From assembly GCF_010729665.1 (NCBI RefSeq), contig NZ_AP022610.1, positions 3,534,001 to 3,598,000 of the forward strand: a stretch of DNA of 64,000 nucleotides, read 5' to 3'. This document shows, piece by piece, positions 28,559-33,227 of the stretch (its first letter is position 1; each line of letters opens with the position of its first letter). The translations under genes were made by a program, and so were the position numbers. The notes below the pieces were generated by a model that was not told the DNA's origin, searched no databases, and worked only from the letters and a program-made list of their open reading frames with translations. This stretch comes from Mycolicibacterium madagascariense. Its GTDB lineage: Bacteria > Actinomycetota > Actinomycetes > Mycobacteriales > Mycobacteriaceae.

Positions 28559-29893
28559 TCAGCAGTTCAGCAGGAAGTGTTGCAGGACCTGGGTCCCGAA
28601 CGTCAGCGACTCGACGGGTACCCGCTCGTCGACGCCATGGAACAGCGCGGCGAAGTCGAGTTCCGGCGGCAGCCGCAGCGGGATGAACCCGAAGCACCGG
28701 ATGCCAAGGCGCGCAAAGTGTTTGGCGTCAGTCCCGCCGGAGAGCATGTAGGGCACGATGCGGGCGTCGGGGTCGACCGTCAGCAGCGAGGCGTCCATCG
28801 CGTCGACCAGATCCCCGTCGAACGTGGTCTCATACGCCGGCAGCGACGTGATCCACTCGCGAGTCACGTCCGGGCCGATCAGCTCGTCGATGGTCCTCTC
28901 GAATTCGGGCAGGCGGCCCGGCAGCACGCGGCAGTCGACGACGGCCTCCGCGGTTCCCGGGATGACGTTGGCCTTGTAGCCGGCCTTGAGCATCGTCGGG
29001 TTCGCGGAGTCGCGCAGGGTCGCACCGACGATGCGCGCGAGCGGCCCCAACTTCGCGATCGTGCCGTCGACGTCCGGCGAGGCGGCATCGAACGCATGCC
29101 CGGTCTCCTCGCCGACGGCGGTCAGGAACTGGGCCACCGGGTCGGTCAGCACCAGCGGGAACGTGTGGTTGCCCAGCCGAGCGACCGCGGCGGCCAGGAT
29201 GGTGACGGCGTTCTCGTCGTGCACGAACGACCCGTGGCCGGCGCGGCCGTGGGCGGTGAGCCGCATCCACTGCATGCCCTTCTCGGCGGTCTCGATGAGG
29301 TAGAGCCGCTTCTCCCCGCCGTCGCGGCGCGGCACCGTCAGCGAGAAGCCGCCGACCTCGCCGATGGCCTCCGTGATCCCGTCGAACAGATCGGGCCGGT
29401 GGTCGACCAGCCACCCGCAGCCGTACTTGCCGCCGGCCTCCTCGTCGGCGACGAAGGCGAACACCAGATCCCGCGGCGGCACGATCGCATTGCGCTTCAT
29501 GTGCCGTGCGACCGCGATCATCATGCCGATCATGTTCTTCATGTCGATCGCGCCACGGCCCCAGACGTACCCGTCCTTCACCGCGCCCGAGAAGGGGTGC
29601 ACGCTCCAGTCGGCGGCCACGGCGGGCACGACGTCGAGGTGGCCGTGGACGAGCAGCGCGCCGCGGCTCGGGTCGGCCCCACGCAGCCTGGCGACGACGT
29701 TCCCGCGGCCGGGCGCCCCCGACTCGATGTACTCGCACTCGTAGCCGACCTGCTCGAGCTGCTCGGCCACCCAGCGTGCGCACGCCTCCTCACCCGCCGT
29801 GGTCTCCGGCTCACCGGTGTTCGACGTGTCGAACCGGATCAGCGAGCTGACGAGCTCCACGACCTCGTCGCTCGCCTGCGCAGTTTCAGTCAC
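28559..29893 (-). CDS. dapE2: M20 family metallopeptidase (DapE2/ArgE-like)
   Basis: This di-zinc amidohydrolase of 444 residues shows [12 protein letters not shown] (metal His/Asp), [10 protein letters not shown] (bridging Asp) and [12 protein letters not shown] (catalytic Glu and metal Glu). A distal His lies in GGTDAKHF. The family removes N-acyl groups from amino acids or peptides; the name dapE2 follows the mycobacterial gene at this site and does not prove succinyl-diaminopimelate activity. The start is GTG 29893, because the in-frame open sequence upstream is Pro/Gly-rich and unlike the family. A tRNA gene lies 75 bp away on the opposite strand. Confidence 0.85.
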
Positions 29894-29968
29894 GGTCCCA
29901 TTCGTACCACCCGGAGGGCGGCCGGGTTTTGGTCCGGGCACCCCGTTCGGTTAGCCTTAGTCGCTCTT

Positions 29969-30054
29969 GTCCGAGTGGCGGAATGGCAGACGCGCTAGCT
30001 TGAGGTGCTAGTGCCCTATTAACGGGCGTGGGGGTTCAAGTCCCCCCTCGGACA
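29969..30054 (+). tRNA. tRNA-Leu (anticodon GAG)
   Basis: The 86-base class II tRNA has acceptor stem GTCCGAG/CTCGGAC with discriminator A. The anticodon stem CTAGC/GCTAG holds the loop TTGAGGT, giving anticodon GAG (leucine CUC). A long variable arm (GCCC...GGGC) is present, and the T arm GGGGG-TTCAAGT-CCCCC is intact. CCA is not encoded. Its 3' end is repeated 2.08 kb downstream, so it served as an integration site and remains whole. Confidence 0.97.
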
Positions 30055-30085
30055 CTCTCTTCACGACACGCGGCGGGCGAAGTCC
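30040..30085 (+). repeat. Left attachment-site-like direct repeat (attL)
   Basis: The copy spans the 3' half of the T arm and acceptor stem of tRNA-Leu plus 31 bp beyond. Allowing one more mismatch, similarity to the right copy extends 5 bases further into the T loop. On the minus strand it also contains the last codons of the esterase gene (DFARRVS, stop), which here are a stranded fragment. Confidence 0.8.
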
Positions 30086-30248
30086 TGACCCGCCGACGCG
30101 TGAATACGAGGCAATCGCCACATCGACATCCACCCGAAGTTCGAAGACCCGCAGCCTTCCGCGCCTACGTAGTCCAACCCAACGCCGACTAGACGACGTG
30201 GCACCCGGCAACACGACCGCGACCCTCTCTGGGCGTTACCGCCATGCG

Positions 30249-30278
30249 TTCGGTGTTCGGTAACGACCGAACACCGAA
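30249..30278 (+). promoter_or_regulatory. Perfect 30-bp palindrome, probable operator of the AbiE-like operon
   Basis: The arms TTCGGTGTTCGGT (30249-30261) and ACCGAACACCGAA (30266-30278) match perfectly around the 4-base spacer AACG. Each arm is itself a direct repeat of TTCGGT, so the site offers four half-sites. It ends 19 bp before the GTG of the first gene. AbiEi antitoxins repress their own promoter by binding inverted repeats, which fits. The rest of 30086-30248 shows no gene. Confidence 0.7.
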
Positions 30279-30297
30279 ACCGTGCGATGATCTTCGG

Positions 30298-31356
30298 GTG
30301 ACGAGATCGCCCCACGCCGACCCGAACGCGGTCGAGGAACTCGCCGACGCCGTGGCCACGGTGGGGCTCGACTTCGTGCGCCCGGACGAAGCCGGCGATG
30401 TACCTGCGGACGGGGTCCTCGTCCTGCCCGACGACCGCCAGCTGCTCGTCGAGATCGAGACGTCGTCACTCGTGACCACGAAGGGCCTGCGGGATCAGCT
30501 ACGACTGTGGAGTCACCGACGGCGCGCGAACACCATCGGCGTCGTCGTGGCCGACCGCATCACCGCCGATGCCCGCGAAGAGCTCCGCGCTGCCGGGTGG
30601 AGCTGGCTGGACACTCGCGGTCACCTACGACTCGCCGCCGACGGACTGCTGATAGACGCGAACGTGCCGGCTGCCCTGCACGCGCCACGCCGACGCGAAC
30701 CGTTCGCGGGTCGGGTTGGTATCGAAGTGGCGTCAGCCATGCTGCTCACACCCGAACGGGCGGTCTCCATTCGTCCACTCGCCGCGCAGATCGGCCGCGC
30801 CCCCAGCTCGGTGTCCGCCACGATCGCCGCGTTCCGTGACGCCAACCTGGTCACTCCGGCCGGGCTCCCCAGAACACCAGAGCTCTTCTGGGAGTTGGCG
30901 TCACGGTGGCGGCCCACCGAACTCGCCATCGCCCTCGAGCCGCGAGACGGTGGCCTGCTCACAGCGCTTCGAGTGAACTTCGACGACTTCGACGAGCCGG
31001 GATGGGCGCTCGGTGATTCGCGCGCGGCCGCCGTGTACGGCGCGCCCATCGCGATCAAATCGAACCATCCGCCGGTGCTGTACGTTCCGGACCAGCAGGT
31101 GATGCGCCGCGCTGCCCAACTGCTCGTACCGGCGCGCGAGGACTCCACGCCTACAGCCGTCGTGCGCGTTGCACCCACGCCCCTCGTATGCACGCACCGG
31201 CAAGACCCGAGCAGTTTCCCCGGTAACGGGAACGGTGAGCACTGGCCCATGACCCGCCCCCTCTTCGTGGCTCTCGACCTCGTTCAGGACCCAGGTCGAG
31301 GGCGCGAGATAGTGGATGGCTGGACTCCCCCAGAACCGTGGTCCCGTGTCTGGTAA
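30298..31356 (+). CDS. AbiEi-like antitoxin/transcriptional regulator with PD-(D/E)XK-like N-terminal part
   Basis: The protein has 352 residues. The N-terminal 110 contain PADGVLVLPDDRQLLVEIET and GWSWLDTRGHLRL, reminiscent of a restriction-endonuclease-like fold with Glu52 and Glu54. A winged helix follows at about 141-190 (VSIRPLAAQIGRAPSSVSAT). The C-terminal half resembles the AbiEi effector part. I start at GTG 30298; an ATG at 30244 would place the palindrome inside the coding region. It overlaps the nucleotidyltransferase gene by 41 bp and should repress the operon and neutralise its partner. A stand-alone DNA-binding regulator is the alternative. Confidence 0.6.
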   Translation: MTRSPHADPNAVEELADAVATVGLDFVRPDEAGDVPADGVLVLPDDRQLLVEIETSSLVTTKGLRDQLRLWSHRRRANTIGVVVADRITADAREELRAAGWSWLDTRGHLRLAADGLLIDANVPAALHAPRRREPFAGRVGIEVASAMLLTPERAVSIRPLAAQIGRAPSSVSATIAAFRDANLVTPAGLPRTPELFWELASRWRPTELAIALEPRDGGLLTALRVNFDDFDEPGWALGDSRAAAVYGAPIAIKSNHPPVLYVPDQQVMRRAAQLLVPAREDSTPTAVVRVAPTPLVCTHRQDPSSFPGNGNGEHWPMTRPLFVALDLVQDPGRGREIVDGWTPPEPWSRVW

Positions 31357-32104
31357 TCAGCAGCAGACCCCGCGGGTGGAACTGCTGGGCGCCCAGATGA
31401 CCGCACTGGCAGACGCAATCCGCACCACCCAGATGCTGACCGGTCAACCCGTGACGGTGATCGGAGGCCTGGCGGTCATATGCCGACTCAGCAGCCCGCA
31501 TCGAGCTACCAGCGACCTCGACATCGTCAACCGCCGCAGCGACGACCAAGTGCCTCAGCTCGAAATGCTGATCGCGAAGAGCGAGCCGGTCGAAGGACGC
31601 AATGCCGCGTTGGTCACGACCAAGGCTGGAAAGGTGATCGTCGACGTCCTGGAAGTGGCCGACGCCGATTTGCATCCGCTGCCCGACGATCCCACCGGCC
31701 GACTCTTCGTCCTGTCTCACGCCTGGGCTGCGGCCACCGCGACTCCCGTCATCATCGGCGTACGCGGACAGCCAGACATCGCGGTCGCCGTTTCCGAGCC
31801 CGGCCCGCTGATCGCCATGAAACTCCAAGCGACCTTCGATCGCGGCAAGGCCAAGGAGGGCACGGACCTGCTCGACGTCGTCCGTCTCACCCTGGATCGA
31901 CAGTCGGGACCCGCAGTGCGAGAACAGCTTTCACGGGCCGAGTCCCAACTCGCGCAAGATGTCGCACGACACGTGGAGTTCTGCCTCGACGCACGCGCCG
32001 ACCGATCACTATCGCTGATCAACGCCATCCCGGAAGGCGCCGACGTACGTCTCGATGACATCCACCTCGTCGCCGAACTACTCAGCGGGGCGCTCGACCA
32101 CTGA
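31316..32104 (+). CDS. AbiEii-like nucleotidyltransferase, probable toxin
   Basis: This 262-residue protein has the minimal nucleotidyltransferase signature: GG at 50-51 (TVIGGLAV), followed by Asp67 and Asp69 in ATSDLDIV. Downstream is the helical MKLQATFDRGKAKEGTDLLDV segment seen in AbiEii/DUF1814 proteins. Such enzymes are toxins of type IV pairs, which act by nucleotide transfer (to tRNA acceptor ends in the mycobacterial MenT relatives). ATG 31316 overlaps the antitoxin gene by 41 bp; a GTG at 31346 is also possible. The stop lies 20 bp before the right repeat, so the gene fills the island to its edge. Confidence 0.7.
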   Translation: MAGLPQNRGPVSGNQQQTPRVELLGAQMTALADAIRTTQMLTGQPVTVIGGLAVICRLSSPHRATSDLDIVNRRSDDQVPQLEMLIAKSEPVEGRNAALVTTKAGKVIVDVLEVADADLHPLPDDPTGRLFVLSHAWAAATATPVIIGVRGQPDIAVAVSEPGPLIAMKLQATFDRGKAKEGTDLLDVVRLTLDRQSGPAVREQLSRAESQLAQDVARHVEFCLDARADRSLSLINAIPEGADVRLDDIHLVAELLSGALDH

Positions 32105-32123
32105 CCGCGCACCCCGCTTTCAC

Positions 32124-32169
32124 GTCCCCCCTCGGACACGCTCTTCACGACACGCGGCGGGCGAAGTCC
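32124..32169 (+). repeat. Right attachment-site-like direct repeat (attR)
   Basis: This copy matches 30040-30085 at 45 of 46 positions; base 32140 is G against T at 30056. Its left part is a loose tRNA 3' end (CTCGGACA) with no tRNA body, and its right part is the functional 3' end of the esterase gene. Sequence similarity stops sharply at 32169. Confidence 0.8.
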
Positions 32170-33227
32170 GCCACGTCGCGCAGGGCCCGCGCGAACAGTT
32201 CGGGCACGGCCGCCCCCATCAGCATCTCGCCCGCGTGACCCATGCCGTTGAACGTGTGACCGGTCGCATCCACCCCGGCCCGCTGCAGCGCCCGCAGATA
32301 CGCCAGACCCTCGTCCCGCAGCGGGTCGATCTCGTCGGTCGTGACGACGTGGGGCGGCAGGCCCCGCAGATCCTCCTCCGACGCAAAGTACGGCCAGGCC
32401 AGCGGGTCGGCGGCGTGCTGGCCGCTGGGGTCGTAGAGCGTCGCCATCAGCGTCATGATCGACGGGCTGAGGACGTAGCCCTCGTTCTCGACCAGGGAGG
32501 GCAGCGCGGGATCGGGCTCGTCGTAGCGCCCGAAGATGAAGGGCACCTGGGCGTAGACGCCGTCGAGGTGGTCGATGCGGCCCTCGCGCTTGGCCTTCAG
32601 CGCTGTCGCCAGCGACAGGTTGCCGCCGCCGGACTCCCCCGTGACGACGATGGACGTCACGCCGAGCCCCTCGCGCTGGCCGTGCATCCAGTCCAGCGCG
32701 GCGGCGCAGTCGTCGAGTCCGGCGGGGAACGGGTGGGGGCCGAGCGCGCCGCCGGAGTTGCGGAACTCCACGCCGACCACCAGCGCGCCCTGGGCGGCGA
32801 GGTGGCCGCGCCACAGCGCCGCGGACTCGTCGACGGCCTTCAGGATGGCCATGCCGCCGCCGTGCAGGTGCAGCAGCCCCGGCAACGGACCGGCCACGCC
32901 GATGGGGCGGTGGACGTACAGCTCGATGTCGTTGCCGTCGACCCCGGTGATGCTCAGCGTCCGCATCTCGACGCCGGACGCACGCGGCACGTCGGCCAGC
33001 AGCGTGGCGAACGACTGGTCGAAGGCGTGCTCGGCCGCCAGCGCCACGGCCAGCAGCTCGTCGAGCGGCGAGCGTCTGCTGACGGGCAGCTCGGCGGCCC
33101 GCCCGGCCAGGCCGAGGGGGGCGAGCGCCGCCACCATCCTCGGGTCCGCCCGCGGGTCGGTGCGCAGCTCCATGGCCGGGTCTCCGAGGCGACCGGGCAG
33201 CGTGACGTCGAACGTGGGTGCGGCCAT
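32145..33227 (-). CDS. Alpha/beta hydrolase (hormone-sensitive-lipase type esterase)
   Basis: The gene encodes 360 residues with the oxyanion motif LLHLHGGGMAIL, the nucleophile elbow VTGESGGGN, and a late Asp/His pair in DEIDPLRDEG and MGHAGE. This is the HSL/acetyl-hydrolase family acting on short acyl esters. ATG 33227 is the first start of the conserved region. The last eight codons lie inside the right island repeat and are repeated at 30060-30083, yet the gene reads through to its own stop, so the island did not break it. Confidence 0.88.
   Translation of the reverse strand: MAAPTFDVTLPGRLGDPAMELRTDPRADPRMVAALAPLGLAGRAAELPVSRRSPLDELLAVALAAEHAFDQSFATLLADVPRASGVEMRTLSITGVDGNDIELYVHRPIGVAGPLPGLLHLHGGGMAILKAVDESAALWRGHLAAQGALVVGVEFRNSGGALGPHPFPAGLDDCAAALDWMHGQREGLGVTSIVVTGESGGGNLSLATALKAKREGRIDHLDGVYAQVPFIFGRYDEPDPALPSLVENEGYVLSPSIMTLMATLYDPSGQHAADPLAWPYFASEEDLRGLPPHVVTTDEIDPLRDEGLAYLRALQRAGVDATGHTFNGMGHAGEMLMGAAVPELFARALRDVADFARRVS

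Follow-up and report, generated by a model that had tools for sequence, protein, structure and literature searches.

The 64,000-nt stretch of Mycolicibacterium madagascariense DNA analysed here (GCF_010729665.1, contig NZ_AP022610.1, forward strand, 3,534,001-3,598,000; hereafter the window) contains an AbiE-like gene pair that lies by itself between two copies of the 3' end of a tRNA-Leu(GAG) gene. This raises the question of how so small a unit came to this site and what could have kept it there. The features concerned are collected in Table 1.

Table 1. Features of the island at tRNA-Leu(GAG) and of its chromosomal neighbours (positions in the window)
Feature	Position	Strand	Method or support
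M20 peptidase gene, chromosomal left neighbour	28559..29941	-	PF01546
tRNA-Leu(GAG), intact, target gene	29969..30055	+	ARAGORN
Left copy of the repeat: 3' end of the tRNA, followed by 30-31 bp duplicating the hydrolase 3' end	30035..30085	+	
Non-coding stretch common to larger elements at tRNA-Leu(GAG)	30120..30171	+	blastn
Probable operator: inverted repeat of 13 bp, perfect, with a 4-bp spacer	30249..30278	.	sequence
Regulator/antitoxin-like gene, 352 aa	30298 (GTG)..31356	+	
AbiEii-like nucleotidyltransferase (NTase) gene, probable toxin	31316..32104	+	
Right repeat copy, holding the hydrolase gene end	32119..32169	+	
Alpha/beta hydrolase gene, chromosomal right neighbour	32145..33227	-	PF07859

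The initial annotation had described a 46-bp direct repeat with one mismatch (51 bp with two), the left copy of which is the end of an intact tRNA-Leu(GAG), with nothing but an operator palindrome, a regulator and an NTase gene between the copies. The positions of the repeat were reproduced, the tRNA was called by ARAGORN, and no further gene-sized ORF was recognised between the copies, where the longer ORFs listed are, on reading, overlapping frames of the two pair genes. In its 51-bp form the repeat encloses 2,033 bp and begins again 14 bp past the NTase stop; the regulator and NTase genes overlap, with the regulator first. The repeat scored 43, whereas 100 dinucleotide shuffles of both flanks gave 12 at most; it scored 45 under another scoring, in which 644 shifted control positions gave a single score of 24 and otherwise at most 15. 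A chance origin was rejected on these scores. The right copy includes the last codons and the stop of the hydrolase gene (32145), and both neighbours are intact after insertion, since the left copy completes the tRNA and the right copy completes the hydrolase gene. The M20 peptidase on the other side of the tRNA has a match at E<=1e-100 in 145 of the 148 genomes searched. The description of the island as integrase-free was also borne out: the three integrases searched gave best alignments of E >1 in the island, the same three queries revealed no integrase stub in the window, and no PF00589 match lies near the island among the matches listed (4 of the genome's 10).

Comparison of the tRNA-Leu locus across the genus, which the initial annotation had proposed as a check on insertion, turned up empty sites in two genomes. 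In G035 and G136, the hydrolases of which are 79-80% identical to that of the window, 29 and 20 bp separate the end of the hydrolase gene from the tRNA and the island is absent. The pair was found near tRNA-Leu(GAG) in none of the 20 relatives fetched. With six candidates scored per genome, an NTase relative at E<=1e-10 was present in ten of the 396 genomes of the genus, the window's own included, and the other 386 gave no match at this threshold. Insertion at the tRNA 3' end is upheld by the empty sites, by these 386 genomes and by the nearest relatives of the pair, which end in the same tRNA-end copy; the 2-kb unit is a real acquired island. It is very improbable that the pair is ancestral at the locus and the repeat a chance or secondary product. 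A distant clade does have a conserved right-hand neighbour, as would be seen under vertical inheritance, but the empty sites contradict this explanation, the absence of the pair from all 20 fetched relatives and of an NTase match from 386 genomes speaks against it, and the repeat scores far above shuffled sequence. For the window's own clade, an ancestral location was rejected on the empty sites and the genomes without an NTase match.

The identity of the pair was examined next to the AbiE type IV system, which it resembles, in the part of the source drawn on here (PMC3985639), by a regulator gene that precedes the gene of a DUF1814-type NTase, by an inverted repeat in the promoter and by GG-x15-DhD with the motif II arginine. 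AbiE toxins arrest growth, and their antitoxins lift the arrest without contact with the toxin. Motifs I and II, hG[G/S]-x15-DhD plus arginine, are represented by G50, G51, R63, D67 and D69 in all 34 aligned NTases. Motif III, whose lysine is found as KLxAaxxR in COG4849 in the same part of that source, may be represented by K169 and R176, both found in 34/34, the aromatic position being I, T or V in most. K180 is likewise invariant, and motif IV has D184 and D187 in every sequence, with T (33) or S (1) at residue 183. In contrast to AbiE as that part of the source describes it, K or R directly before DxxD is absent from all 34, the window NTase falls below the Pfam cut-off (16.9 bits against AbiEii, cut-off 22.5), and the window regulator has an extra NucS/Mrr-like N-terminal region and a winged helix in mid-protein, not at the N-terminus. 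PF08843 was matched at E<=0.01 by 14 of the 34 aligned NTase relatives (best 1.4e-6). The regulator matched no AbiEi model. The earlier type IV call holds for most DUF1814 motifs and for the 14 relatives that match PF08843, but not for the Pfam score of the NTase itself or for the regulator. Because most DUF1814 (AbiEii) motifs are present and the score is below the cut-off, 'AbiE-like' is, on sequence, the right name for the pair; it was not classed as a full AbiE member, since features tested for were absent. The NTase is 262 aa long from ATG 31316, or 252 aa from GTG 31346.

GTG 30298 is the most likely start of the regulator and gives a length like that of its relatives; this start is preferred because the longer frame from ATG 30244 crosses the inverted repeat. 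Palindromes resembling this inverted repeat precede the pair in relatives. The protein consists of the NucS/Mrr-like region, the mid-protein winged helix (at about residues 140-190 of the regulator relatives) and a conserved C-terminal part, and an N-terminal winged helix as in AbiEi is not the layout of this family. Two regulator relatives have a NucS_C match above the cut-off in the N-terminal region, and a D..(E/Q)xK nuclease-like motif is represented by D38 (16/17 aligned members), E/Q52 (14/17) and K54 (16/17). The window regulator, with E at position 54, is the sole exception to the lysine; if the N-terminal region is enzymatic in relatives, the window copy is probably dead. In the MenAT report (PMC11375011), mycobacterial DUF1814-type NTases are likewise combined with one of several unrelated antitoxin families. 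No MenT structure was among the PDB matches of the window NTase family profile, the sole match being 5uvd_A (E 0.01).

The closest pairs point to the larger structure from which the island may derive. The window is 85.9% identical to G209 over 2002 bp (window 30126-32120) and 87.3% identical to G188 over 1877 bp (window 30246-32120). The closest NTase relatives (90-91% identical) stop about 140 bp short of another tRNA 3'-end copy; in G209 and G188 about 120 bp follow the aligned part before the core is reached, and this tail is missing from the window. The G209 pair forms the distal cargo of an element measuring 29.7 kb and adjoins a copy of the tRNA end at that distance from the tRNA itself; a full-length serine integrase match lies at the tRNA. 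The window pair and the G209 pair share the tRNA, the orientation and the element end, and the rest is missing in the window. In G188 the tRNA is on another contig and the extent of the element is not traceable. The non-coding stretch 30120-30171 matches sequence to the left of the G209 pair and also the G045 and G056 loci (81-89% over 43-46 bp).

These comparisons favour the reading that the 2-kb unit is a CIME-like remnant of a larger integrase-bearing integrative element, reduced to its AbiE-like pair, and we hold it to be the probable explanation. A larger element with an integrase would have entered at the tRNA-Leu(GAG) 3' end and then lost its integrase, its genes for replication and transfer and, at its right end, about 120 bp, while the pair, situated at the element end away from the tRNA, was retained. 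Through the 13-bp inverted repeat the regulator probably acts as a repressor of the operon to which it belongs, and it probably also neutralises the NTase toxin, so that losing the pair would be penalised and the remnant would persist. That integration and transfer genes were formerly present is suggested by the G209 element and the shared relic at 30120-30171. We infer toxin-antitoxin activity, selection to keep the pair and the order in which parts were deleted. The support for a remnant comprises the repeat, the empty sites, the G209 element, the shared relic 30120-30171, the series of small islands, two of which keep integrase stubs, the series at tRNA-Ala(GGC) and the reported stabilisation of an ICE by AbiE in Streptococcus suis. 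Against it stand the right-end motif next to the core, which is conserved in other elements and absent from the window, and the lack of an integrase stub in the window in the search with three integrases.

The tRNA-Leu(GAG) gene is a recurrent target in the genus. Its core occurs away from the tRNA in 80 of the 396 genomes by a pattern that misses copies like the window's own, and a reversed control pattern occurred in none; 15 of the 80 are unplaced, with the copy and the tRNA on different contigs or no tRNA match. By distances worked out by hand, 12 core copies share a contig with the tRNA and are less than 5 kb away from it. They delimit 12 small islands, and in none of these did any of the three integrases searched occur intact, intact meaning a full-length tblastn match and not an HMM hit. 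Eight of the 12 carry a toxin-antitoxin pair, five of them with little else. VapBC is found in L231, L233, L251, L253 and L260, an HTH plus PIN pair in L232, ParE with an antitoxin in L234 and AbiEi plus AbiEii in L256. The pair is nearly the sole content in L231, L232, L234, L251 and L260. Pfam supports the cargo of L231, L232, L234 (antitoxin below its cut-off) and L256, and the remaining VapBC assignments rest on 87-96% identity to L231. VapC ends 110-112 bp before the core end in 6 of 26 distinct att contexts. Two small islands retain C-terminal stubs of a serine integrase at the tRNA end (residues 465-548 in L251, 478-548 in L254). Counting against the remnant explanation, L235, L252, L254 and L255 (4/12) have no recognised pair, and L233, L253 and L256 contain further ORFs beside it. 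The earlier remark that integrase-free islands of this size are rarely described needs a qualification, since small integrase-free islands are recurrent at tRNA-Leu(GAG).

G142 (8.8 kb), G395 (12.7 kb), G019 (13 kb) and G209 (29.7 kb) carry larger elements at this tRNA, each with a full-length match to a serine integrase next to the tRNA, and the L240 serine integrase has a PF07508 match. When the ends of these four elements are joined, the sequence CGTGTCG..core..CGACACG is obtained, an inverted repeat of the kind expected in a serine-integrase attP. Elements of 8.6 and 9.0 kb at the same tRNA (L151 and L152, in G054 and G078) have a tyrosine integrase beside the tRNA and each contain a capsid-like ORF, named by eye; they were rejected as the source of the window ends, their core lying further left (GGGGTTCAAGTCC...ACA).

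The recurrence of small islands also gives room to another explanation, which we consider unlikely, namely that the unit is a genuine minimal cassette. Toxin-antitoxin pairs would then lie between recombination sites, stack in tandem much like integron cassettes and be mobilised in trans by an integrase supplied from another element with the same ends. Small islands with differing cargo do share both ends (left CAATTTnTTAGCT..., right CGTGTCG...GGCCAAG-core), and in M. helveticum an AbiE-like pair is followed in tandem by a VapBC unit (L066:4105-5406), each ending in a copy of the tRNA-Leu core. Neither conserved end is found in the window, however, the stubs of L251 and L254 suggest deletion, and no excision was seen. 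Furthermore, the CAATTT left end is also found in two larger islands, L257 (7.2 kb) and L258 (10.2 and 7.3 kb), in which the toxin-antitoxin queries had no match, so that this end is not specific to toxin-antitoxin cassettes.

The length of the repeat bears on the remnant reading and on a third one. The repeat was confirmed as the boundary of the island, but it is longer than usual at this site, where the shared core is 18-21 bp in nine of the 12 other small islands and the repeat reaches 29 bp in L256, 58 in L231 and 114 in L235. In the window 31 bp extend to the right of the core, a direction of extension also seen in L231 and L235, and the window's extension is native hydrolase-side sequence that is present at both island ends. 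After plain integration and an internal deletion, the tRNA should be followed by sequence of the element, so this counts against a remnant. It would fit an insertion by illegitimate or homologous recombination that duplicated 51 bp of target without a site-specific recombinase, as would the lack of conserved element ends in the window. Nevertheless, the boundary lies exactly at the tRNA 3' end, which is the target of many elements, and the nearest relatives stop at the same core, and we judge an insertion of this kind to be improbable. That recombination inside a former tandem array extended the repeat is a guess.

Related pairs occur at other sites. The set of 74 loci comprises the window, 64 further loci and nine more, five of which are duplicates (L141, L142, L143, L145, L147), and with these duplicates counted the regulator gene adjoins the NTase gene in 71 of the 74. 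After exclusion of the five duplicates and of four loci with <100 bp of one flank, direct repeats scoring at least 16 within 450 bp on both sides were found at 9 of 65 loci, as against 1 of 644 shifted positions. Two of the nine, L067 and L084, represent operator copies rather than att sites, L100 is degenerate, and L089, whose repeat stands further out, is not counted. In L067 (6913-6945 and 8780-8812) and L084 (6941-6973 and 8813-8845) the pair is flanked on either side by an operator-like palindrome.

At tRNA-Ala(GGC) the states run from a whole element to a broken gene. G394 has a 25.4-kb element with a tyrosine integrase and a related pair, G309 (43-bp repeat) and G120 (57 bp, 2 mismatches) have pair-only islands, and in G401 a broken NTase gene is adjoined by an integrase-like fragment. 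L097 has the left flank common to tRNA-Ala(GGC) loci. Identity is higher between the islands than between their left flanks (85.7 vs 78.8% and 92.6 vs 77.8%), which also favours a mobile cassette. The TGACGACA repeats, candidate integrase arm sites, were seen at the ends of tRNA-Ala elements and not in the window. By eye, a similar ORF of about 500 aa adjoins the integrase in G394 (L149, L150) and G209 (L238, L239), the integrase being of the tyrosine type in the former and of the serine type in the latter.

Pair-only islands are also found at the 3' end of ychF, a gene identified for L088 from PF06071 and PF01926. Of 13 scanned loci, seven have the ychF 3' end directly upstream of the pair and three have it at a greater distance. 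Among 39 Amycolatopsis regions (40 hand-picked from 80 with known carriers included, less one in which the gene end was not found), six have the pair after ychF, one with a perfect 24-bp second copy, a count that is not a frequency. Several toxin-antitoxin units in tandem at L082 and a 1.14-kb RHH/Doc unit at L168 are further points for the cassette explanation. At L082 (4805-8851) AbiEi_4 plus AbiEii, a Fic/Doc protein and then a window-type pair follow ychF, with ychF-end repeats. At L168 two ORFs, called RHH-like and Doc-like for their resemblance to L082, lie between ychF-end copies at most 1.14 kb past the ychF stop, and the last codons of the Doc-like ORF are inside the second copy. The wider proposition, that toxin-antitoxin pairs between gene-3'-end copies are a general class of integrase-free cassettes in Actinobacteria, moved in trans by end-sharing integrases and stacking in tandem at tRNA-Leu(GAG), tRNA-Ala(GGC) and ychF, seems doubtful to us; if it were true, addiction alone would sustain a mobile unit.

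Among known systems, the remnant comes closest to the cis-mobilizable elements (CIMEs), which, in the part of PMC5704250 considered, are bounded by att-like repeats at a gene 3' end, lack genes for integration and transfer, and occur where larger relatives and accretion in tandem are also found. CIMEs retain functional attL and attR and are mobilised in cis by an accreted element. The att-like direct repeats at both ends of the window unit lie at a known integration site. Unlike a CIME, the unit contains only one 2-kb toxin-antitoxin-like pair and has lost one end motif; it was not filed as a proven CIME, because its repeats are putative attL and attR sites. In the portion of PMC11062541 drawn on here, AbiE is reported to stabilise an integrative element, ICESsuHN105 of Streptococcus suis; that ICE is complete, whereas the rest of the element is gone in the window. 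The window pair may serve in maintenance or in phage defence.

The more interesting result is that toxin-antitoxin-carrying remnants recur at several sites. A literature search of titles and abstract openings, with subscription journals and supplements outside its scope, found no toxin-antitoxin-only islands at these sites. With a series in which whole element, lone pair and broken remnant stand at defined positions in related bacteria, the old idea that toxin-antitoxin modules stabilise surrounding DNA can be tested by comparing genomes. Were addiction to matter, survival beyond the loss of integrase, replication and transfer genes should be more frequent for the pair than for other cargo. 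Such remnants would also be one possible origin for the solitary chromosomal toxin-antitoxin pairs beside tRNA genes.

Phage carriage was rejected, as no relative was confirmed in viral contigs or in phage records. The distant pair relatives L116-L128 have a conserved right-hand neighbour in common, and five of them share the left flank, with a detected tRNA-Ser or tRNA-Leu upstream in four of the five. In three Asanoa loci, tRNA-Ala(CGC) lies 5 bp beyond the NTase match, and two Rhodococcus plasmids carry relatives of 44-45% identity.
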